Source of the DNA: Anaerolineae bacterium | Lineage (GTDB): Bacteria; Chloroflexota; Anaerolineae; J036; Brachytrichaceae | NCBI GenBank assembly: GCA_018500105.2 | Contig: JAHBAL020000276.1 | Coordinates: 1-42,727 of the forward strand | Reading direction: 5' to 3' | Length of the DNA: 42,727 bases | Part shown: in pieces, positions 7,470 through 21,778 of the stretch | Layout of the letters: the number at the start of each line of letters is the position of its first letter | Numbering within the stretch: position 1 is the stretch's first letter | Notes under the pieces: generated by a model | Database searches by the model: none | Told to the model about the DNA's origin: nothing | The model's input: only the letters and a program-made list of their open reading frames with translations | Made by a program: the position numbers and the translations under genes

Positions 7470-8480
7470 ATGACTTGGAACTCAGCACTTACTCAACTTA
7501 GCATCACTTTGGCAGGTTACTACCCTACTGAAAAAATGGCAATGCAAATTGTCAAACAATCCACTATGAATTCCTCACTTGTTGATTATGAGGGATCTCC
7601 TGCTACGCGATGGTTTTCGATAGTTGATGAAGCCATTAAGCAAAGTAAACTTAGCCAATTGGCAGCACGCGCAGCACAAGATTATGCAGGAGATAGCATT
7701 TTGCGCTATGCCAGCAACCATGATTTATCTCAAGCCAGTGCAGTAACAATTAATGGCCTCGAATCTGTTTGTGATGTGGCTCAAGATTTTGTTGAAGGCG
7801 ATTATGAGGTCCTTACAAGTACACAACAAACATTGTTACCAATTCAAACGTTGCTAACTGGTTGGCAAATGGCTCAAAGTGTATGCAAAATAACGCGTGG
7901 TGATGGTGGGCCTGCAACAGGATTTATGATCCAAAATGGTCTATTGCTCACGAATAACCACGTCATTGCAAATTCACAAGAAGCCCAAAAAGCAATTATC
8001 GAATTTAACTATCAAGGGGATATAACGGGGTATGTGGATCAAAACAAAGTGAAACGGTTTCAATTAGCCCCTGATCAAGGGTTTGCCACCTCAGATAAAC
8101 AAACAGGGGATGATTGGACCGCAGTAAAGGTAAAGGGCGATACCAGTGAATTCGGCACGATTCCCCTAAAAAAGCTGGATAGTGGCCCTAAAGAAAATGA
8201 GTACACCTTTATCATCCAACACCCCAGTGGTTTGCCTAAACAAATTTCGTTTTTTCATAACACAACGATTGCCTCTAAAAAAGCAAATCGAGTGCGTTAT
8301 CTTACAGATACGTTGCCGGGGTCATCAGGTTCACCGGTTTTTGATCAGAACTGGAAACTGATCGCACTTCATCATTGGGGAGAGGTAAAATCAAACAATA
8401 GTTCACGAAAATTTGCATATAACCAAGGAATTCACATCAACGCGGTCGTTGATGGGTTAACAACAAAAGGCTTACTATAA
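7470..8480 (+). CDS. EAD1-trypsin: effector-associated domain fused to a trypsin-like serine protease
   Basis: This 336-residue protein heads the AT-rich four-gene block. Residues about 1-80 match the EAD1 pattern: W near the N-terminus, a central W48, 'IVDEAIKQSKLSQL' and a final 'DYAG' turn. EADs are small helical homotypic-interaction domains found in bacterial conflict systems. Residues about 135-330 form a chymotrypsin-fold protease. The catalytic triad is assignable as His164 (TNNHV), Asp215 (GDDWTAV) and Ser286 (GSSGSPV), like glutamyl-endopeptidase/HtrA-type enzymes. There is no signal peptide, so it acts in the cytosol. It is inferred to be an effector held in check until the NTPase recruits it through EAD1-EAD1 contact. 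I see no convincing Shine-Dalgarno before the ATG. Confidence 0.85.
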   Translation: MTWNSALTQLSITLAGYYPTEKMAMQIVKQSTMNSSLVDYEGSPATRWFSIVDEAIKQSKLSQLAARAAQDYAGDSILRYASNHDLSQASAVTINGLESVCDVAQDFVEGDYEVLTSTQQTLLPIQTLLTGWQMAQSVCKITRGDGGPATGFMIQNGLLLTNNHVIANSQEAQKAIIEFNYQGDITGYVDQNKVKRFQLAPDQGFATSDKQTGDDWTAVKVKGDTSEFGTIPLKKLDSGPKENEYTFIIQHPSGLPKQISFFHNTTIASKKANRVRYLTDTLPGSSGSPVFDQNWKLIALHHWGEVKSNNSSRKFAYNQGIHINAVVDGLTTKGLL

Positions 8481-8494
8481 CAAAGGAAAACATC

Positions 8495-9049
8495 ATGAAC
8501 TGGACTTCAGAATTGAATGAATTGCGTAATGTATTTGCATACCTTTATTCATCAACCAATTCAGCACGCACCATTGCAACCCAATCGGGGGTTAGTTTGC
8601 TCCACGTCAATTTGCAAGATGCAATTATTAATGTATGGCAAGCAATTGTCGAGGAAGCTGTTAAGCAAAACCGAGTTGAGGGCTTAATCACTGAAGTTAG
8701 TCGAACCTATGGCGAGAACCAACAATTCAAGTCAGCTGTAAATGCTTGGAAAGCAAGTTTAGGAACAGTTCTACCTCCGCAGCCACCGCCAGTCGCGTTG
8801 CCAGACCGAACCGTTTTACGTATATTTATTATCGCAAATCTACAAGACGACTTCAATGAATTTCTGGTGGATTTTAGTGGGGAGTTAAATAAAAGATATG
8901 GTTTTGACGCGGTGATTACACCAGCAATATTAGGTGGCTCAAATTTTGGTCAAACTGCTCTGAACTTGATACTTTATTGCGAACGCCGTGGTTGGTATGG
9001 AGATTTGGTGCGCGAGGTGCGGAAATCGCGGCCACATTTGAATTTATAA
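8495..9049 (+). CDS. EAD1 plus second EAD-like domain: small adaptor protein
   Basis: This 184-residue protein has no catalytic domain. Residues 1-88 are an EAD1 domain strikingly like that of the next gene; both share FAYLYS, 'IIEEA/IVEEA' with KQNR, and 'LITEV..TY'. Residues about 105-184 form a second small helical domain ('VLRIFIIANLQDDFNEFLVDF', then LILYCERRGWYGDLVREV, then RPHLNL). Its plan is typical of other EAD families: a leading LR helix, a Gly/aromatic turn and a terminal RP motif. I cannot assign its EAD number. A two-headed EAD protein is best read as an adaptor joining two sets of partners. A clear ribosome site (AAAGGA at 8482-8487) lies 14 bases after the protease stop, so it is co-transcribed with it. 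Confidence 0.7.
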   Translation: MNWTSELNELRNVFAYLYSSTNSARTIATQSGVSLLHVNLQDAIINVWQAIVEEAVKQNRVEGLITEVSRTYGENQQFKSAVNAWKASLGTVLPPQPPPVALPDRTVLRIFIIANLQDDFNEFLVDFSGELNKRYGFDAVITPAILGGSNFGQTALNLILYCERRGWYGDLVREVRKSRPHLNL

Positions 9050-9197
9050 GGTTCTTGCTGTTTTCCATAGACAAGAAAATTACTTTGCATATTTTTACTG
9101 TCAAAGATCAACATTTGGGGGCACTCTGGACAAACTTAAATTTTACAAAGATAAAACAAGTAAGGTTTGAGATAAGCCAAATCAACGATTCACCAAT

Positions 9198-12100
9198 ATG
9201 GACTGGTTATCAATACACACTGATCTGCGAGATGTTTTTGCGTATCTTTACAGTGAGACTAAGTTAGCGAAGCAAGTAGCCCAAACCGCTGGAATCAACT
9301 TAATCCATCTTGAATTATCCGCCGCACCAACTAGCGCATGGCATGTAATTATTGAAGAAGCAATTAAGCAAAATCGTTTGGAGCAGTTAATCACTGAAGT
9401 TGATAAAACATATTCAGACAATCATCGCCTTAAGGAAGCAATAGGCAAATTTCGAAAAACAACTACCAATTCTAATACGAAATCGAATAGGTTTCGGTCA
9501 GCCCCGCGAGACTATACCCTCCAAAATAAATTTCATGGACGCGATCATAGCCTTACAGCCCTAAATGACTGGGTCAGATCAGAGGATCCAATCATGATTA
9601 TTCATTCTATGGGGGGGATGGGTAAAACAGCCTTATGTTGGGAATGGGTAAAAAAGCATGTTCAAAACAAGATGGATTTTGAAGGCATCTTCTGGTTTAG
9701 TTTTTATGACAAAGGCGGTAATTTAGATTTTTTTGTTAATCATGCCCTTGCTTTCGTAGAAAATAAATCCTTTGAAAATTTAAAGCACGAAAAAAGATCT
9801 AACTCATCAGCTGCAGAGAGTTTACGCAATTTACTAAAGGAGCGAAAATTTCTTATCATCATTGACGGTCTTGAACGAATATTACGCGCTTACCAAGATA
9901 TTCATTATGCGCAACTTACGGAAGATGCTATCACAAAAAAACAAGATTTAAAGGAGCACAGATGCTGTGTTGAATCAGAACACGACTCCTTCTTATTACA
10001 ACTCATTGGTTGCTCACAGTCTAAAATTTTAATCAGCTCACGATTAATCCCCACGGTTTTTGAGGGAACTTACCAAGGATATTTACCCGGTATTACAATT
10101 CATAAATTAGATGGACTAAGATCAGAAGATGCTGTCAATTTTGCTAAATCCGCCGGCATCAAACGAGTAGAGGTTAAAGATATGGTTGCTTATTTCAACA
10201 AATTTGGTAATCACCCAGTTATTATCAAGTCAATTGCTGGTTTAGTCGCCCATTACCCTTTTGGCCCGGGCAATTTTGACAAGTGGTATTTGGATGAAGG
10301 ATATAAATTGAACCTATCTGAAGTTGATCAATATAAGCAAGTAACGGAAGTCCTCAACTATGTAACGCAAGGTCTTGCGCCTGATAGTAAATTAACACTT
10401 GCATTATTAGCAGTGTTTGGCGAAGCCATAGACGCAACAATGCTTTTACATAACATAAACCCATTTTTACCCCCCAAACCGAGTTCTAGGGATTTACCAG
10501 CGATTCCGAATCTCATTCCCAACCCGCTCGGCTCTCGACAGCAGGCAGAGCAGCAGCGCCACCCTCAGGCTTATAGGCTAAACAAAAACACCACTGTAAT
10601 AAAGCATCATCACAATTTAACCTATCAAATGCTTTCTTCGAATAACAGTATCGAAGTATATTCATCACAGGAACGTAATTTCAAACAACGCCTCTCACAA
10701 CGCAACCAAGCAATAACTCGCAGAAGTGCAGTTTATCAAGCGCAGAAAAAGCAGCCGGCCTATGTGGCTGGGATAACACGATTAAACGACAGCTTAAAAG
10801 ATCTTGGTGATAGAGGATTAATAGATATCACTGAAATTGATTCACAATTTGTATATGACTTACATCCATTGGTTCGAGCATATATTACCGACGAAAATGG
10901 GTTGTTTGACAAAAAAATTGTATCTGAAGCACGTTCACACCTATTAGACAAATTATCTCAGCGACCTGTTGACAGAACTGACAAACGTGAACTGCAAAAT
11001 TTTGCTATAGAGTATAGAGGATACCTTGAGTCAGGTCAATATGATAGCGCGGCTTCGGTATATATCAATCTCATAGACGATGCCCTATTTGAGTCAGCCG
11101 ACTATATCACAAGTCTTTCGTACCTCAATCCCTTTATTGAAAATGATTTGCGACAGCTTAAACTACTCGCTGACCAAAGCAATCAGTTATCTATATTAAA
11201 TGCCGTGCTAGCATGTTATGCCATGCTTAATGATCAAGCTAATTTTGATAAGTTTATTTTACTCAACCTGCAATGGCGATTCCAAGCAGAAGACGCCGCC
11301 AGCTTGATTTATACACTAAGCTGGTACGCATATTATTTGGCAGGGAACGGACGACTAAGAGAGGTAGATTATATTTTAAATATCGCCATTGATGGCGCAA
11401 AAAAGATTAAAAATGATGATTTACTAGCAAAGGTATACTCTTGGAAGCTAGACTTAATGATCACCATAGGGCAAACAAGCGAGATTAATAACCTACTTAA
11501 CTTGCTAGCTGAAATAGCATCTAAAAACGTAAAAATTGCTTCATACCAAGCAAATAACACCGTTTACTTATATGCACGCATTCGGTTAGCCCTACGATCA
11601 GGGGCTGACCCTGCCGAATTCTTTAAACACCTAGAAAAAATTCCTCGTGCTAAATATCACTTAGGGTATTACTTGCTCCAAGCACAGTATAAGTTGATAA
11701 ACAATGAATTTGCAGATGCAAAAAAAATCGCCGAGTTAGGGTTAAACACCTTGTCAGGCAAGGGCATAAATTGCTCAAACTTGTGGGCATTAAAAGCTGA
11801 AATTTGTCAACATTTATCCGATACTGCAGAAGTCAATAAAGCAATTGAAAAATCACTCTTTGAGTTTGAAAAAACTAATATTTCTATACTTCAGAAAGCA
11901 GCAACTTGTAATGCGCTGGCCAGGATTTATTGTCTTCAAAACAATCAAGAAGAAGCCCTCAGATATGCAAATATGGCTTTTGAATATGCAATTTGCGAGG
12001 GTGAGCCATACACCTATTGGCAAGGCATTGAAGAAGCCAAGCAAACCTTACAAACGTTATCCGTTTCTATACCTAGCATTCCTTTTGTCAGGGACAACAT

Positions 12101-12713
12101 AACGGAAATGCCATATGATCGTGAAGCCCACCGTGTTTTGGCGCAAGCCAAAGGGAAGCCGAATGAAACACGCGAAAAAATTGAGATTAAATTATGTCGC
12201 TGGTTTCAAATTGGTGTTACGGCTTTTTTTAATGTTAAGACAGATGAAGAACGCCAAAAAATGACGGCTATTGGCTGTGAACTCTATGCGCTCTCGTCCG
12301 ACCCCGGGCCAGTATCGGTAACCACAGCAGATGAGTTGGTTGACCGCCCTCCGTTATTTTCATATCTCGAAGACTGTATCCCTCATAAAGAGGCGGAAGA
12401 GCTTGATTTAAGCTTTATTCGCCAAGCCGCCCATCACGACTGCATATCCATCGTTTATATTTGTGCGGATACCCAAGACAATAAGATTATCCATTTTTTC
12501 ATGTCTGTGCGATCAGAACAGATGACTAGCCTGTATCTTAAATGTCAATCTGGCACATTATTTGATGTCAGCACTTATGGAAGGGTTGTCTCAGGTCCCT
12601 TTGATGACCAGCCATCAAAAGAGCAGCTAGATGATATGTTTGATAACTGGCTTTTTTGTAGTCATTTTCTACCCTTAAAAGTTATCTCTCGAAAAGCGGG
12701 GGAGGATAGCTAG
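9198..12713 (+). CDS. EAD1-STAND NTPase with helical repeats and an unassigned C-terminal domain
   Basis: This 1171-residue protein is the likely sensor and switch. Residues 1-88 are EAD1. A linker leads to a STAND/AP-ATPase-type P-loop domain: FHGRD at 112-116, Walker A GGMGKT at 139-144, Walker B 'FLIIIDGLERIL' at 218-229 with Asp223, a sensor-like 'KILISSR' at 276-282, and a GNHP motif near 337. Residues about 375-590 hold a winged-helix-like region interrupted by a Pro/Gln/His-rich low-complexity stretch. Residues about 610-955 are helical repeats consistent with TPRs (alternating Ala/Leu/Tyr helices). Residues about 960-1171 form an extra alpha/beta domain I do not recognise. The STAND mode of action is ligand-triggered oligomerisation; the ligand is unknown. 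It starts 148 bases after the adaptor and is followed seven bases later by the hydrolase gene. Confidence 0.85.
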   Translation: MDWLSIHTDLRDVFAYLYSETKLAKQVAQTAGINLIHLELSAAPTSAWHVIIEEAIKQNRLEQLITEVDKTYSDNHRLKEAIGKFRKTTTNSNTKSNRFRSAPRDYTLQNKFHGRDHSLTALNDWVRSEDPIMIIHSMGGMGKTALCWEWVKKHVQNKMDFEGIFWFSFYDKGGNLDFFVNHALAFVENKSFENLKHEKRSNSSAAESLRNLLKERKFLIIIDGLERILRAYQDIHYAQLTEDAITKKQDLKEHRCCVESEHDSFLLQLIGCSQSKILISSRLIPTVFEGTYQGYLPGITIHKLDGLRSEDAVNFAKSAGIKRVEVKDMVAYFNKFGNHPVIIKSIAGLVAHYPFGPGNFDKWYLDEGYKLNLSEVDQYKQVTEVLNYVTQGLAPDSKLTLALLAVFGEAIDATMLLHNINPFLPPKPSSRDLPAIPNLIPNPLGSRQQAEQQRHPQAYRLNKNTTVIKHHHNLTYQMLSSNNSIEVYSSQERNFKQRLSQRNQAITRRSAVYQAQKKQPAYVAGITRLNDSLKDLGDRGLIDITEIDSQFVYDLHPLVRAYITDENGLFDKKIVSEARSHLLDKLSQRPVDRTDKRELQNFAIEYRGYLESGQYDSAASVYINLIDDALFESADYITSLSYLNPFIENDLRQLKLLADQSNQLSILNAVLACYAMLNDQANFDKFILLNLQWRFQAEDAASLIYTLSWYAYYLAGNGRLREVDYILNIAIDGAKKIKNDDLLAKVYSWKLDLMITIGQTSEINNLLNLLAEIASKNVKIASYQANNTVYLYARIRLALRSGADPAEFFKHLEKIPRAKYHLGYYLLQAQYKLINNEFADAKKIAELGLNTLSGKGINCSNLWALKAEICQHLSDTAEVNKAIEKSLFEFEKTNISILQKAATCNALARIYCLQNNQEEALRYANMAFEYAICEGEPYTYWQGIEEAKQTLQTLSVSIPSIPFVRDNITEMPYDREAHRVLAQAKGKPNETREKIEIKLCRWFQIGVTAFFNVKTDEERQKMTAIGCELYALSSDPGPVSVTTADELVDRPPLFSYLEDCIPHKEAEELDLSFIRQAAHHDCISIVYICADTQDNKIIHFFMSVRSEQMTSLYLKCQSGTLFDVSTYGRVVSGPFDDQPSKEQLDDMFDNWLFCSHFLPLKVISRKAGEDS

Positions 12714-13815: not shown

Positions 13816-14124
13816 ATGGCACACGTAGATGGACAAGGGCAACGCTTCGTGCCCGGCTCACGCAAATATGACCGCAGCATCGAGGATGCGCTGCAAACGA
13901 TGGAGCGCTTGGCGCTATGGCTTGACCGCGCCAAACAAGACAATATTTGGCAAGAATTGGACGACCCGCTGCAAATTGCGGCTTTGCACGGCATGTTGAG
14001 CCATTTGCAACATGAAACCGCCAGCCTGATTGACCTTGGCGGCGAGACGGCGCAAAACACGGTGCAGCAATTGCGCAGCCTGCGCCAATCTGCCGCCTTG
14101 ATGCGAGGTGAATATGGCGAATAA
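13816..14124 (+). CDS. Small helical protein of unknown function, upstream of and overlapping fdhE
   Basis: This 102-residue protein begins with the ATG at 13816; an upstream in-frame TTG lies inside the hairpin and is less likely. Base use returns to the GC-richer style of the chromosome. The N-terminal third contains 'DGQGQRFVPGSRKYDRSIEDALQ' elements, and the rest is predicted helical with many Gln and Leu residues. I do not recognise a family. Its last 11 bases overlap fdhE, so it is probably translationally coupled to that formate dehydrogenase maturation gene and could be a small maturation or chaperone factor. That role is only inferred from position. Confidence 0.6.
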   Translation: MAHVDGQGQRFVPGSRKYDRSIEDALQTMERLALWLDRAKQDNIWQELDDPLQIAALHGMLSHLQHETASLIDLGGETAQNTVQQLRSLRQSAALMRGEYGE

Positions 14125-15124
14125 AGCCGCCGCTCCTGCCATTGACCCGAACCTTGCGCCGTTTGTGCGCCGAATTGATCTGCTCGCCAAGCGTGGCCCA
14201 CAAGCCGCCGAAATTGCCGAGTTTTATCGCGGCTGCATTCCCATTTTGCGAGTAGCGACGCAAGCCATCGAGCCGTTAGACATTGACCTTGCTTATGCCG
14301 AAGCGAAATTGGCGGCCGGGATGCCGGTCTTGGTAGATGAAGATTTGCCGCTCGATATTGATGCCTATGCCGCTTTGTTTGTGCAGTTGTGCGAGGTGAT
14401 CGAAAATTTGAAGTCGCCAGCCGCCTTCACAGCCGCGCCAGCCGCTGGCAGCGTGGGCAAATCGCTCTTGTCGGGGCTGTTTAAACGTGGCAAACCCGAT
14501 GTCGCCAAGGTCATGACGCACATTGAAAATAGCGATGCGAATGCATTGAGGCGCATGGCGGCGGGCCAATTGCGGCAAGTGGTCAAGCAAGGCAAGCTCG
14601 ATCTCGGTGAGGCGTATGGCGCAATTTTAAGCGGTGACCGTGACGCATTGACTGCAATGGCCCATGCGCATCAACTTGATATGGGGTTGTTGACGATGTT
14701 GGCGCAAAACAGTTTGCGCCCGGCTTTTCGCGCATGGGCAAATGGCTTAAGTGCGCTCGACACCTCATTCTGGCAACGCGGTTTGTGCCCCATCTGCGGC
14801 GCGATCGCTATTTTTAGCGAAATTGCTGGCAAAGAGAGCGAACGCCATTTGATTTGTGGCATGTGCGGCTGTCGTTGGCGTTACCCGCGTTTGCAATGTA
14901 TGAGCTGTGGCTGTGATGACCATCACCAATTGGGCCGCATTAGCGGCGAAGGCGACGACGCCGAGAAATATTTTGCCCAAACCTGCAATCGTTGCCAATC
15001 TTACAATAAATTTATCACCAACTTTGACCCCATTGCCACCGAGCTTTTGCAAGTCGAAGATTTGCTGTGTGGGCACTTCGATGTCGAGGCGCGGCGACAA
15101 GGCTTTCATGGAAATTATGAATGA
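14114..15124 (+). CDS. fdhE: FdhE, formate dehydrogenase accessory protein
   Basis: This 336-residue rubredoxin-like accessory protein is needed to activate Tat-exported respiratory formate dehydrogenases. The ATG at 14114 follows a GAGGTG ribosome site. The C-terminal half shows the zinc/iron-binding CxxC series expected of FdhE: CPICGA, CGMCGCRW, CMSCGCDD and CNRCQ, about residues 224-298. The N-terminal part is helical, and 'RPAFRAWANGL', 'FWQRGLCPICG' and 'ICGMCGCRWRYPRLQC' follow the family pattern. It is encoded just ahead of mrp and the formate dehydrogenase structural genes, so this cluster carries its own maturation factor. In the family the protein acts in the cytoplasm before export, probably by binding the catalytic subunit. 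Confidence 0.9.
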   Translation: MANKAAAPAIDPNLAPFVRRIDLLAKRGPQAAEIAEFYRGCIPILRVATQAIEPLDIDLAYAEAKLAAGMPVLVDEDLPLDIDAYAALFVQLCEVIENLKSPAAFTAAPAAGSVGKSLLSGLFKRGKPDVAKVMTHIENSDANALRRMAAGQLRQVVKQGKLDLGEAYGAILSGDRDALTAMAHAHQLDMGLLTMLAQNSLRPAFRAWANGLSALDTSFWQRGLCPICGAIAIFSEIAGKESERHLICGMCGCRWRYPRLQCMSCGCDDHHQLGRISGEGDDAEKYFAQTCNRCQSYNKFITNFDPIATELLQVEDLLCGHFDVEARRQGFHGNYE

Positions 15125-15296: not shown

Positions 15297-16427
15297 ATGC
15301 AACTAAGAAACCTTTTTAAGAAAACCCCGGCACAAGCGCCACTGACCGTTGATGATGTGCAAAAGGCGCTGGCAACCGTATTAGAACCAGAGGTTAACCG
15401 CGACCTGATTTCGCTCGGCATGGTGAAAGACATTGCGGCGCGGGACGGTGTGGTGAGCTTTAGCATTATGCTGCGTGAGGCCGGCAGCCCGCTGCAAGTG
15501 CCGATTGAGCGCCGCGCCCGAAAAGTGGTGGGCGCATTGGCTGGCGTTAAAGACGTGCGCATTAGTTTCGAGACCAGCCCACGCTCGGTGCTGCGTGATA
15601 CCACGCAGCTTGAAAATCTCGACATTAAGCATTTTGTGGTGGTGGCGAGCGGCAAAGGCGGCGTGGGCAAAAGCACGGTGTCGGTCAATTTGGCGGCTGG
15701 GTTGGCGCAATTGGGGCATCGGGTCGGCATCCTCGATGGTGACATTCACGGGCCAAACGTGCCGATGATGCTGGGTGTGCCCAACGAGCAGCCGTTGGCC
15801 TTCGGCGACAAAGTTTACCCGCCACAAGCCCACAACCTCACTGTGATGTCAATGGGACTGCTTGTGCCATCGGATGTGCCGGTGATTTGGCGCGGGCCGA
15901 TGTTGCACCAAGCCGTGCGCCAATTGCTGCGCGATGTATTGTGGGGCCAGCTCGATTATTTAATCATTGATTTGCCGCCCGGCACGGGTGATGTGCAATT
16001 GACGCTGCTGCAATCATTGCCGTTGCACGGGGCGGTGCTGGTGACCACCCCGCAAGAAGTCGCCTTGGCCGACGTGGTGAAAAGCGCCGAAATGTTCAAA
16101 CAATTGGATGTGCCGATCATCGGGCTGGTCGAAAACATGAGCTATTACCAATTGCCCGATGGCAGCCGCGATTATGTGTTTGGTGAAGGCGGCGGCACAA
16201 AATTGGCGACTCGCATGAAGATTCCGTTGTTGGCACAAGTGCCGCTCAATGGCTTGGTGCGCAGCGGTGGTGATGCTGGCGTGCCGGTGGTAATTGGGCA
16301 ACCAGACAGCCCAGCGGGGGCGGCGCTCAAGTCGGTGGCCGAGCGCGTCGTCAAGCGCGTCGCCGAAATCCCCAAACCGGTTGTCATTCCACAATTTAAG
16401 GCCGACCCGACGCTGAAGATTTTTTAA
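15297..16427 (+). CDS. mrp: Mrp/NBP35-family P-loop ATPase (iron-sulfur cluster carrier type)
   Basis: This 376-residue protein has an N-terminal MIP18/DUF59 domain (residues about 15-95, including 'LEPEVNRDLISLGMV') and a deviant Walker A 'GKGGVGKST' near residue 120. Further family signatures are 'ILDGDIHGPNVPMMLG', 'VIDLPPGTGDVQLTL' in near form (LIIDLPPGTGD) and 'GLVENMSYY'. Mrp/ApbC proteins bind and transfer [4Fe-4S] clusters in the cytoplasm. The usual CxxC after the NMSYF motif is absent here: the sequence reads SYYQLPDGS. This may be a divergent cluster-binding mode or an apo-type member. Its position between fdhE and the formate dehydrogenase genes suggests a role in loading that enzyme's clusters. 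Confidence 0.9.
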   Translation: MQLRNLFKKTPAQAPLTVDDVQKALATVLEPEVNRDLISLGMVKDIAARDGVVSFSIMLREAGSPLQVPIERRARKVVGALAGVKDVRISFETSPRSVLRDTTQLENLDIKHFVVVASGKGGVGKSTVSVNLAAGLAQLGHRVGILDGDIHGPNVPMMLGVPNEQPLAFGDKVYPPQAHNLTVMSMGLLVPSDVPVIWRGPMLHQAVRQLLRDVLWGQLDYLIIDLPPGTGDVQLTLLQSLPLHGAVLVTTPQEVALADVVKSAEMFKQLDVPIIGLVENMSYYQLPDGSRDYVFGEGGGTKLATRMKIPLLAQVPLNGLVRSGGDAGVPVVIGQPDSPAGAALKSVAERVVKRVAEIPKPVVIPQFKADPTLKIF

Positions 16428-16464: not shown

Positions 16465-16642
16465 CAAATTGGCGTCTGCGCAAAATAATCTGATTAGTTT
16501 TGCCTTAAAACAAACGATATCTCCCTTTACAAAACTGAAAATACGATTAAACTTCGTCTATATCTTATGATGATTTGGGCGGCGTATTAACGCCTCTTAA
16601 GCCATAAGAGAAGCACTCATACACTCACAGGAGGAAGTTCTA

Positions 16643-19600
16643 GTGAAAAACACTGTTTCACGTCGGCAATTTCTCAAATTGTCGGCAAAGGCGCTAGGGG
16701 GGGCCGCCGCAGCCGAAGCGGCTGGGCTGGGTATTGCCAATGCCAGCACCTATAGCAAGCCTGCACTGCTCAAAAGCGGCAAAGAAGTGCCAAGCCTATG
16801 TCCGTATTGCTCGGTTGGATGCGGGCAAATTGTCACGGTCGCTGAAGGCAAAATCATTGATATCCAAGGCAACTACGACAGCCCGATCAACGAAGGCACA
16901 CTCTGCCCCAAAGGCGCAGCCACCTATCAGTTGGCGGTCAACCCATTGCGCGAGACCAAGGCTAAAATCCGCAAGCCCGGCTCAGACAAATGGGAAGACA
17001 TTTCGCTGGAAGCCGCGATGGATCGTGTGGCAACGTTGTTCAAAGAAACCCGCGACAGGACATTTGTCGAAAAGGTTAAGATTGGCGATACCGAAAAGGT
17101 AGTCAATCACACCCAAGCCATTTTCTCGTTGGGCGGGGCCACCATTGACGATGAATGGAACTACATTCACCAAAAAGTGATGCGTGCGGCGGGCTTGGTC
17201 GCCATCGAAAACCAAGCGCGGATATGACATAGCGCATCCGTCCCCGGTCTGGGGACTACCTTTGGTCGCGGTGCGGCCACCACTTTTGCCCGTGATTTGG
17301 TCAATTCAGACGCGATCATGATCATGGGTTCGAACATGGCAGAATGCCATCCCGTCGCCTTTCGTTGGGTAATCAAAGGCAAAGAAAAGGGCGCCAAGCT
17401 CATTCACGTTGACCCGCGCTTTACGCGCACCAGCGCCATGGCCGATCAATATGTGCCGATTCGAGCCGGTGGCGATATTGCGTTTTTGGGCGGCATGGTC
17501 AATTGGCTGCTCAATAACCCGAAATGGCTCAACAGCGAATTTCATCGCGAATATGTCTCATTGTTCACCAACATGAGCACGATTGTGAGCAAAGATTACA
17601 AGGGCGCGGATGAACTCGACGGCGTATTTTCGGGCTTAGCCCAAGACGGTAAGAGTTATAGCTCGGCCTCGTGGCAATATCAGCGCGACGAGGCGCAAAA
17701 CAAGGTCACCGGCGAGGAAAAAACCTATGCCGAAATGTTGACCGCCCGTGTGCCGGGCACACCCAAGACCGATCCAACTTGGCAAGACCCGAACTGTGTG
17801 TATCAAATTCTCAAGCGTCACTATGCCCGCTACACGCCTGAGATGATCGAAAAGACCACCGGCACGCCCAAAGATCTATTCTTGAAGACGTGCGAGACGA
17901 TGTTTGAGAATTCTGGGCGTGACAAGACCGGCTGTATCGTTTATTCGGTGGGCTGGGCGCAGCACAGCTTTGGCGTGCAGATTATTCGTGCATCGGGCAT
18001 TGTGCAGGCGTTGCTGGGCAATATGGGCCGGCCCGGCTCAGGCATTTTGGCGTTGCGCGGTCATGCCACCATCCAAGGCAGCACCGACATTTCGACGCTG
18101 TATCACTCGTGGAATGGCTATTTGGCAAATTCGGATGCGCGGCGCAACCACGCCACGCTGAAGGATTACATCTTGACCGAAAGCCATACCACCAGTTTCT
18201 GGAGCAACACGCCCGCCTTTGTCATTAGTATGCTCAAAGCGTGGTTTGGCGATGCCGCTACCGCCGAAAACGAGTATGGCTATAACAGCCTGCCGAAGTT
18301 GACGGCTGACCACTCACATATGCCGACCTTTGTGGCGATGCAGCAAGGCGGCGTTGAGGGCATGTTGGCGATTGGGCAAAACCCAGCCGTCGGCGGGCAA
18401 AACTCTGAATTTCAGCGCCAAGCGATGGGCAAGCTGAAGTGGTTGGTGGTGCGCGATTATTTCGACACCGAAACCGCCGCCTTCTGGAAGCGTCCGGGCG
18501 TCAATCCGAAAGACATTCAAACCGAAGTGATCTTCTTGCCTGCCGCACACGTGGCCGAAGGCGATGGCACATTTACCAACACCTCGCGTTTGTTGCAAAA
18601 GCACGAGAAAGCCGTAGACCCGCCGGGCGATGCGCGCACCGACTTGTGGTTTAGCTATCACTTGGGCGCACGGCTGAAGAAGATGTATGCCAGCAGCACC
18701 AACCCGCGTGATTGGGCGATCAAGAATCTGTATTGGGATTATTTGGACGAGGCCGAGCAAAAGGCACACGGCTGGAAGATTTTGGATGAGCCAAGCGCCG
18801 ACAAGATTTTGAAGGAAGTCAACGGCTTTACTTGGGCAGACAAAAAGTTGGTGGCTGGTTTCACTGCGCTCAGAGACGACGGCACAACCGCCTGCGGGGC
18901 ATGGATTTATTCAGGTGTGTATCCGGCAGAAGGGCGCAATTTGGCGGCAGCGCGTAAGGGCGACAATTATGTTTCGCCGGGCTGGGGCTTCTCTTGGCCC
19001 GCCAATCGTCACATTATGTATAGCCGCGCCAGCGCTGACGGGGCCGGCAAACCTTGGAGTGAGAAGAAGAAGTTTACCTATTGGGACGCAACCCGTGACA
19101 CTGGCACGAAAGATGCCAACGGTAACCCAATTTTGGGTCAATGGGTGAATGCCTTCGGTGACGCGATTGACTTCCCCGTAACCAAGGCCCCGACTGCCAA
19201 AGCCAACCCGAAAGGTTTGGGCTTGGCGTTCCATGATGGCACATCACCCGCGATTATGCGCCAAGACGGCAAGTTTTGGCTGTTTGCGCCGGGCGGAACC
19301 ATTGACGGGCCGTTGCCGACGCAGTATGAGCCGGTCGAAAGCCCGGTGAAGAACCCCATGTATAAGCAACAACGCAACCCGTTGGCGCGGATGTGGGATG
19401 TGAAGGGCAATCGGTATCACGAGGAGGCTGACGCGGCGAAATACCCGATGATCATCAGCACCTATCGCGTCACCGAGCATTACTTGGCGGGTGGCATGAG
19501 CCGCTGGTTGCCTTGGTTGGCCGAATTGATGCCTGAATTCTTCATCGAAATCAGCGAAGAATTGGCGAAAGAAAAGGGGGTGGCTAACGGTGAGTTTGTG

Positions 19601-19948
19601 GTGGTCGAGACCAAACGCGGCGAGGTCGAAGGCCGCGCCTTGGTGACCAAACGCCTCAAGCCATATAACATTGACGGCAAAGTGGTGCATGAGGTGGGTA
19701 TGCCTTGGCACTGGGGCAAGCAAGGCTTGGCCAGTGGCGACTCGGCGAACGATGTGGTGGCGATGATTGGCGATCCCAATACCACCATTCACGAAGGCAA
19801 AGTGTTTAGCGGCAACCTGCGCAAAGGTCGCCGCAGCAAGCAAGCCCCCGACATTTTTGCCGAGCGCGTGGCAATGGATATGGACAGCGAAATGGCACTG
19901 GCCGACGTCCAGCATAGCCCATTCTTGGGCGAGGTGGAGAATGCTTGA
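16643..19948 (+). CDS. fdnG: Selenocysteine-containing formate dehydrogenase, catalytic (alpha) subunit, Tat-exported
   Basis: This 1101-residue molybdenum/tungsten bis-MGD enzyme oxidises formate to CO2 outside the cytoplasmic membrane. A GTG start at 16643 follows an AGGAGG site. The twin-arginine signal SRRQFLK is at residues 6-12. The [4Fe-4S] ligands are Cys53, Cys56, Cys60 and Cys88 (CPYCSVGC...CPKG). The in-frame TGA at 17225-17227 falls exactly where FdnG-type enzymes have selenocysteine (QARI-Sec-HS...GLGTTFGRGA), giving Sec195. The frame continues without shift to the TGA at 19946. The C-terminal part has the MGD-binding domain (for example 'YPMIISTYRVTEHY' and 'MPWHWG'). If TGA is read as stop, the gene would wrongly appear as two pieces. 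It forms an operon with the next two genes, interrupted by an unusual hairpin. Confidence 0.95.
17225..17262 (+). promoter_or_regulatory. Bacterial SECIS element directing selenocysteine insertion
   Basis: Directly after the in-frame TGA an mRNA hairpin can form: CCCC (17242-17245), loop GGTCT (17246-17250), GGGG (17251-17254). GGTCT is the apical loop that SelB recognises in Escherichia coli formate dehydrogenase mRNAs. The 18-base spacing between TGA and GGTCT equals that in E. coli fdhF as I recall it. The hairpin is translated as part of the protein, so the coding sequence is under dual constraint. Confidence 0.92.
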
Positions 19949-19950
19949 GA

Positions 19951-20017
19951 GTTAAAAGTGCTAAGTGCTAAGTGCTAAGTATTGAAAACTTAGCACTTAG
20001 CACTTAGCACTTTTAAC
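19951..20017. repeat. Perfect 30-bp-arm hairpin built from AAGTGCT heptamers, inside the fdh operon
   Basis: Arms 19951-19980 and 19988-20017 are exactly complementary and contain three tandem copies of the heptamer AAGTGCT. The loop is seven bases (ATTGAAA). The structure begins two bases after the catalytic-subunit stop codon and ends four bases before the AGGAG site of the iron-sulfur subunit gene. It could attenuate transcription or protect the upstream message from 3' decay. Confidence 0.9.
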
Positions 20018-20032
20018 TTTAACAGGAGAAAT

Positions 20033-20857
20033 ATGGCAAAAGGAATGTTTGTAGATACCTCGATTTGCATCGGCTGCAAGGCGTGTCAAGTGGCGTGCAA
20101 AGAATGGAACGGATTGGAAGGCGAGCCAGATCACTTTACAAAAGATGCGGGTGGGCAATTACGCGCCACCAACTTTACGGGTATGTCGTATGACAACACC
20201 GGCGGCATGTCGGCCACCAACTGGCGGCAAGTGCGCTTTGTCGAGACTGGCTCGGTGACCCAAGGCAATATGGCGTGGTATATGATGAGCGACTCGTGCA
20301 AGCATTGCAACGAAGCGGGTTGTCTCGAAGTATGCCCGACCCAAGCCCTCATCCGCACCGACCTCGGCAATGTGGTGGTGCAACAAGACGTATGCAACGG
20401 CTGCCGCAACTGTATTCCGGCTTGTCCGTTTGATGTCATTAGCTATAACAAAAAGACGGGGCGCGTGAATAAATGCACTTTGTGCGATGATCGCGTTCAT
20501 AACGGATTAGAGACCGCATGTGCCAAAGCCTGCCCGACCGACTCGATTGTGTTTGGCGATGTGGATAAACTGGCGGCTCAGGCCCGCACCCGCGTCGAAT
20601 TGCTCAAAAAGCAAGGCTTTAACAAAGCCCAGCTTTATGGTCAAGACGACGGGCGTTTGGGGGGTCTCAATGTGTTTTATCTGTTGCTCGATGAGCCAGA
20701 AAAATACAATCAGCCCAAAAACCCGACCTTGCCGCAAAAAACCGGCTTGCCGGCCTCAATCGCGGGGGCCATCACCTCGCTCATCCTCGGCTTGGGCGCG
20801 TTGGTGGCGTTCCGCAATCGCGGGGCAAACGAGAAAATGGAGGCGCGTAAGCGATAA
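20033..20857 (+). CDS. fdnH: Formate dehydrogenase iron-sulfur (beta) subunit with C-terminal membrane anchor
   Basis: This 274-residue electron-transfer subunit carries 16 Cys in four clusters typical of FdnH/FdoH: 'CIGCKACQVAC', 'CKHCNEAGCLEVCP', 'CNGCRNCIPACP' and 'CTLCDDRVHNGLETACAKACP'. These would bind four [4Fe-4S] clusters that pass electrons from the Mo/W site to the membrane subunit. Residues about 242-262 ('IAGAITSLILGLGALVAF') form a single transmembrane helix like the anchor of FdnH. There is no signal of its own, so export as a complex with the Tat-tagged catalytic subunit is expected. The start follows AGGAG at 20024-20028. The downstream gene begins three bases after its stop codon. 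Confidence 0.93.
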   Translation: MAKGMFVDTSICIGCKACQVACKEWNGLEGEPDHFTKDAGGQLRATNFTGMSYDNTGGMSATNWRQVRFVETGSVTQGNMAWYMMSDSCKHCNEAGCLEVCPTQALIRTDLGNVVVQQDVCNGCRNCIPACPFDVISYNKKTGRVNKCTLCDDRVHNGLETACAKACPTDSIVFGDVDKLAAQARTRVELLKKQGFNKAQLYGQDDGRLGGLNVFYLLLDEPEKYNQPKNPTLPQKTGLPASIAGAITSLILGLGALVAFRNRGANEKMEARKR

Positions 20858-20860
20858 ATC

Positions 20861-21778
20861 ATGCACAGTGCTTTACATTCGCCCTACTGGGAAGGCTGGA
20901 TTGTGGCTTACTTTTTTGTCGGCGGATTGGCAGGCGGGGCGTATTTCATCGCTTGCTTGCTCGATCTGATTCGGCATGGCAGCGGGCGCGCGATCACTCG
21001 CGCTGGCTGGCTCATCGCTTTTCCCGCTTCGCTCATCTGCGCGGTGTGCCTCATCCTCGATCTTGGTGTTCCAGAGCGCTTCTTGCACATGGTCATCAAC
21101 ATTAAGGCGATGATGCCCACGCCCAAGATTCACTCGCCCATTAGCATTGGTTCGTATATCGTGCTGGTGTTTAGCGGGCTGGCTTTTGTTCACTTTTTGC
21201 GGCTGATGGTGGATGGTGGCACACTGAAGGGCGGGATCGCCAATTTGGTGCGCACACTCACCAGCGGCACAATTGGTCGTGTGGTCAGCGCGTTGGGTTG
21301 TGTGTTTGGCTTGTTGTTAGCCGGCTATACGGCGGCCTTGCTTGCCACCACCCATTACCCCGCGTGGAAGGATTCACCGTTGATTGGCGCATTGTTCGTC
21401 GCGTCGGGCGTCTCTACTGGCTTGGCCGCCATTGCGCTGCTTTTGGCAGCGCGTAACGAGAAGATGGCGGGCGAAGCATGGAGCAGCCTCAAACGTGCCG
21501 ACAATTTCGCCATCATCGTCGAGATCGCGGCGCTGGTGCTGATGTTGGTGACGCTGGGTGGCTCGGCTGCGCCGTATCTCAAACCCCTGACTATGGGCTT
21601 GTTGTTGGGTGGCACGTTGTTGGTTGGGTTGCTCATTCCGTTGCTGTTGCAATGGAAACCCGCCTTTGCCGGCGCCCACGCCAGCAATTCACTCACCATC
21701 GGCACGGCTTTGCTCATTCTGCTAGGCGGTCTAATTTTGCGATTGGTGGTTGTGCTTGCGCCGCAAGGCTTTATTTAG
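20861..21778 (+). CDS. NrfD/PsrC-like integral membrane subunit of formate dehydrogenase
   Basis: This 305-residue protein has about eight to nine transmembrane helices, starting with 'WIVAYFFVGGLAGGAYFIACLLDL'. That segment and 'CLILDLGVPERFLHM' are typical of the NrfD/PsrC family of quinone-interacting subunits. No haem-ligand His pattern of the FdnI cytochrome b subunit is evident, so this organism pairs an FdnGH-type dehydrogenase with an NrfD-type quinone module. It presumably passes electrons from the iron-sulfur subunit to menaquinone. It is the last gene of the operon and converges on aroE with a strong hairpin between them. Confidence 0.88.
   Translation: MHSALHSPYWEGWIVAYFFVGGLAGGAYFIACLLDLIRHGSGRAITRAGWLIAFPASLICAVCLILDLGVPERFLHMVINIKAMMPTPKIHSPISIGSYIVLVFSGLAFVHFLRLMVDGGTLKGGIANLVRTLTSGTIGRVVSALGCVFGLLLAGYTAALLATTHYPAWKDSPLIGALFVASGVSTGLAAIALLLAARNEKMAGEAWSSLKRADNFAIIVEIAALVLMLVTLGGSAAPYLKPLTMGLLLGGTLLVGLLIPLLLQWKPAFAGAHASNSLTIGTALLILLGGLILRLVVVLAPQGFI

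Follow-up and report, generated by a model that had tools for sequence, protein, structure and literature searches.

A predicted selenocysteine-containing formate dehydrogenase with an NrfD-type membrane partner in an Anaerolineae bacterium

Does the TGA at 17225-17227, where standard gene calling ends the first of two reading frames, terminate translation, or is it read as selenocysteine (Sec) inside one long formate dehydrogenase (FDH) gene? The question arises in a window of 42,727 nucleotides (the whole stretch of DNA analysed here), which is contig C70 of the draft genome of an Anaerolineae bacterium (574 contigs with a total of 5.34 Mb; completeness 91.7%, contamination 1.6%). Our main explanation, to which we give a probability of about 97%, is that 16643-19948 is a Sec-decoded catalytic subunit of the FDH-N type. 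Such a gene follows a well-known mechanism and is textbook biology rather than a surprise; the features on which the argument draws are collected in Table 1.

Reading frame and protein family

The initial annotation held that standard calling splits the gene, that the TGA occupies the catalytic Sec position and that the frame runs on beyond it, and all three points were borne out. Calling with table 11 returns two open reading frames (16643-17227 and 17297-19948), while translation of the whole interval gives a single internal TGA, at residue 195, and the terminal TGA. In the alignment with E. coli FdnG, Sec196, His197 and Arg446 stand opposite residue 195, His196 and Arg472, and the four cysteines of the iron-sulfur cluster and the lysine that follows them are preserved. 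A search of solved structures returned selenocysteine-containing FDHs as its top matches (722-728 bits), in which the residue opposite the TGA is written as X in one entry (8cm4) and as C in another, within the motif QARI-[Sec]-HS. The alpha chain passes TIGR01553, the model for the formate dehydrogenase-N alpha subunit, with 972 bits against a cut-off of 814 (residues 5-1061); its top raw score among all NCBIfam models is to NF041513 (formate_DH_Act), where its 1,284 bits stay below the curated cut-off of 1,400 and leave it outside that family. With its aligned in-frame TGA and its conserved flanks and frame, the gene is assigned by sequence to the bacterial selenoprotein FdhA/FdnG family. 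The N terminus has a Tat-type start with the twin-arginine motif SRRQFLK, from which the subunit is probably exported.

Table 1. Features at and around the formate dehydrogenase locus (positions in the window)
Position	Strand	Feature	Basis
14108..15124	+	Probable, divergent FdhE maturation protein	FdhE_central 30.6 bits (cut-off 27); TIGR01562 51 bits, below cut-off
15297..16427	+	Fe-S carrier of the Mrp/ApbC type, probably a helper protein	Profile matches
16629..16634	+	Ribosome-binding site AGGAGG, 8 bases ahead of the GTG start	Sequence read directly
16643..19948	+	fdnG/fdoG-type formate dehydrogenase alpha chain, 1,101 residues, predicted Sec at 195	Translation; TIGR01553; E. coli FdnG alignment
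17225..17227	+	In-frame TGA, predicted to be read as Sec, opposite E. coli FdnG Sec196	Translation and alignments
17240..17256	+	Putative bacterial SECIS hairpin, stem GUCCCC/GGGGAC (6 bp), loop GGUCU at 17246-17250	RF01989 match, E 0.0064, below gathering score; covariation
20033..20857	+	FdnH-type beta subunit, ferredoxin-like cluster motifs, C-terminal hydrophobic stretch	Profile matches
20861..21778	+	NrfD-type membrane subunit, in place of cytochrome b FdnI	PF03916 94.8 bits

The hairpin behind the TGA

The element CCCC-GGTCT-GGGG, with 18 bases between the TGA and the loop, is present as first described, with a stem two base pairs longer than was noted. Its register is identical to that of E. 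coli fdnG, and it satisfies the constraints of the bSECIS model, which places a stem-loop 16-37 nt after the UGA, with a loop of 3-9 nt and a G in its first two positions (PMC13188914). Rfam gave no matches at the gathering threshold across the whole window, and the hairpin, which has the right place and register, scores 21.9 bits with SECIS_3 (RF01989), whose gathering score is 63; it would act like SECIS_3 though it falls outside that family by score. Thermodynamic folding did not single it out against shuffled sequences (z -0.22). At the exact spacing, a stem of 6 bp around a 5-nt loop follows 1 of 1,082 codons of the alpha gene (where the loop starts with GG, as behind the TGA) and 1 of 6,453 codons in the other open reading frames of the window. 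Since about 8-12% of synonymous recodings of the encoded peptide VPGLG recreate the stem, the hairpin in a single sequence is weak evidence, and the case for a SECIS element is made by comparison across homologues.

For this comparison 55 homologues were aligned, drawn from relatives of the host, from the phylum, from other public genomes and from E. coli. A TGA stands at the Sec codon in 52 of them, followed by a hairpin in the same or nearly the same register with a loop that is always GGUCU, AGUCU, GCUCU or AGUUU; besides E. coli, the TGA-bearing sequences come from genomes that carry, as filed for the assemblies (MAG labels), the names Chloroflexota, Nitrospirota, Pseudomonadota and Actinomycetota. 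Pair 3 of the stem (alignment columns 18 and 30) is paired in 50/52 sequences, as GC (22), CG (19), UA (5), AU (2) or GU (2), and unpaired in two, counts that are not independent events because the homologues are related by descent. When synonymous codons were redrawn according to the usage of each gene (2,000 trials), this pair formed in 21.4 ± 3.5 of 52 sequences and never in more than 32. In a 17-sequence alignment the pairing was 85%, and it fell to 40-62% when the partner was slid by 1-3 columns. It is difficult to account in another way for several kinds of pair at a third-codon position, which argues that the hairpin is more than chance, even though several distant homologues pair imperfectly in the exact register and some of these may use a shifted stem.

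The three homologues that lack the TGA (two with TGC, one with AGT) form only 3, 4 and 1 of the six pairs. These loci, L119 (G189:C23), L120 (G181:C1) and L121 (G169:C303), encode Cys or Ser where Sec would stand, and their stems have decayed; the last of them also contains an in-frame TAA. The 52-sequence set offers comparative support for selection on the SECIS hairpin in Chloroflexota, with natural Cys and Ser controls in which the stem has decayed.

Selenocysteine machinery and alternative readings

The gene had been taken to predict SelA, SelB, SelD and tRNA-Sec in the host, and the last three of these were found in the genome while selA was not. The gene for tRNA-Sec (selC) lies at C34:5832-5924 (70.7 bits, cut-off 47) and is called by ARAGORN as tRNA-SeC with anticodon tca. 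Host selB is known only from its two ends: contig C490 carries an N-terminal part at its edge (304.7 bits, cut-off 242), and contig C295 likewise carries the C-terminal end; by synteny these contigs flank one selB in the congener G002, with about 0.6 kb missing between them. The initial annotation had named the absence of both selB and selC as the observation to set against it, and both are present in the same genome. A selD gene on C120 (377 bits, cut-off 125) itself contains an in-frame TGA where Sec normally stands, in ASCAG-U-AGK (L020:2033-2035, G000:C120), which makes SelD a second predicted selenoprotein of the host; thermodynamic folding did not single out that region. fdhD was found on C523 (230 bits). 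As a separate observation, a 22-residue stretch resembling the start of SelB or EF-Tu occurs at G000:C375:11967-12032 and G000:C486:7-72, with equal scores and in very short frames, possibly as fragments of a duplicated factor.

No selA was found in the 91.7%-complete host draft, and each of the three remaining genomes in the genus has one (499-510 bits). In the two closest congeners, G002 and G003, which are 94% identical across the selA region, the gene has the same neighbours, lying in G002 between nuoN and, one gene further, a gene for a PBP-like protein. In the host these two flanking genes are on separate contigs, nuoN towards the end of C236 and the PBP-like gene close to the start of C502; only some 230-260 bases that look repetitive separate each of them from the break, and a search for selA fragments at these two contig ends returned none. 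As the contigs on both sides of the selA slot break off there, the gene has probably fallen into an assembly gap, which we regard as the most economical reading of its absence. Two other places were considered for the gene and rejected: C357:3413, at 34.6 bits (cut-off 268), is a different PLP-type enzyme with equivalents beside the true selA in the congeners, and the gap between the two selB contigs, given its size relative to G002, has no room for selA.

These data bear on two other accounts of the codon. One is that the TGA is a real stop, left by recent pseudogenization or by an error of sequencing or assembly, and that the hairpin is coincidental, as the ease with which synonymous recoding yields a similar structure might suggest. 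Against this, the same TGA is found in a congener whose protein is 92% identical and in another 50 homologues, as distant as E. coli fdnG, a conservation on which we reject a sequencing error; roughly 900 codons beyond it are open and conserved, and the hairpin covaries. We consider this account barely credible. The other, which we hold to be highly improbable though slightly less so, is that the host has lost selA and reads UGA as Cys or Trp by a route independent of the Sec machinery, in keeping with the missing gene and with the existence of Cys-containing homologues. It must contend with the congeners and contig ends just described, with the retention of tRNA-Sec, selB and a Sec-type selD, and with the use of TGA as an ordinary stop elsewhere, including at the end of the alpha gene itself.

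Operon partners, distribution and known systems

The beta and NrfD genes that follow the alpha gene also lie downstream of fdnG at four homologous loci (L063, L064, L065 and L070); FdhE is linked to fdnG at the last three of these and Mrp/ApbC at L070. Where an E. coli-like FDH-N complex would have the gamma subunit, cytochrome b FdnI, there is a gene of the NrfD family, and judged by its genes the predicted complex is FDH-N-like in its catalytic part and unlike FDH-N in its anchor. Between fdnG and the gene for the iron-sulphur subunit (19952-20018) we observed repeats of GTGCTAAGTGCTAAGTGC together with their reverse complement, and other short repeats from intergenic DNA of G002 have many copies in the host genome. 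Elsewhere in the window, three adjoining genes (7470-12713) encode an EAD1-trypsin-like protease, a protein with EAD1 and EAD7, and a 1,171-residue NB-ARC (STAND) protein with EAD1, in what looks like a conflict or defence cluster beside the formate dehydrogenase genes.

Taken together, the locus would encode a membrane-bound, periplasm-facing enzyme of the FDH-N kind with the product of 16643-19948 as its catalytic subunit. SelD would supply selenophosphate, SelA would convert Ser-tRNA-Sec to Sec-tRNA-Sec, and SelB, holding this tRNA and the hairpin, would deliver Sec at UGA codon 195, where it would serve as a ligand of a Mo or W bis-pterin centre. Electrons from formate would then pass through the [4Fe-4S] cluster of the alpha subunit and the FdnH-like subunit to the NrfD-type membrane subunit and on to quinone, the last step being proposed from what is known of NrfD (PMC8076601). 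We tentatively suggest, at somewhat under even odds, that Sec-containing FDH-N enzymes form a large clade centred on Chloroflexota, in which the host gene and its nearest relatives are anchored by NrfD and not by the haem-carrying FdnI; if this is true and NrfD couples to ion movement, energy would be conserved differently from E. coli FDH-N.

Among 79 genomes searched as relatives (the host included), an alpha chain was found in 14 (E <= 1e-100), whereas selB and selA exceeded their cut-offs in 66 and 63, respectively; within the family, FDH is patchy and the Sec machinery is not. Most relatives of family f1 (G001-G027) keep selA and selB and lack FDH, and therefore another selenoprotein, perhaps SelD, must maintain the trait in them. 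In the wider phylum, 63 of 181 genomes have the alpha chain, most full-length matches with one TGA. In a quick tree the host gene joins that of G002 and then those of two Anaerolineae MAGs (SH-aLRT 100); all of these fall in a clade of 38 rows, separate from the FDHs of most sampled relatives of the class. The locus had been put forward as a clear reference case for selenoprotein annotation in this lineage, which is fair but modest, because most full-length homologues of the phylum share the TGA and a Sec-FDH from Anaerolineales is already in print (PMC4959059). Since standard gene calling splits the FDH of this group, formate respiration may be hidden in automatic annotation.

Compared with E. 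coli FDH-N (FdnGHI; PDB 1kqf), the alpha subunits are collinear, with 416 of 974 aligned residues identical and with Sec, His, Arg and the cluster cysteines kept, although the host chain is about 90 residues longer. The E. coli hairpin (GUAGCA-AGUCU-UGCUCC) has the same spacing but differs in stem sequence and has the loop AGUCU where the host has GGUCU. The beta subunits are homologous, and the host departs from E. coli in its membrane partner and in the fdhE and mrp-like genes upstream. The Sec-FDH alpha chains of PDB 9qm0, 8cm4 and 6sdr, which we take to be of the Desulfovibrio vulgaris type and to belong to the soluble periplasmic FdhAB, align over nearly the whole chain with Sec at the aligned position; unlike in that enzyme, an NrfD gene follows in the host. 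The published Sec-FDHs from single-cell genomes of Anaerolineales and other Chloroflexi (PMC4959059, PMC5736913) come from the same phylum, though from different genomes, and likewise have a predicted active-site Sec, and that of An-B22 has been described as an NAD-linked FdhAB, in contrast to the three-subunit form predicted for the host.
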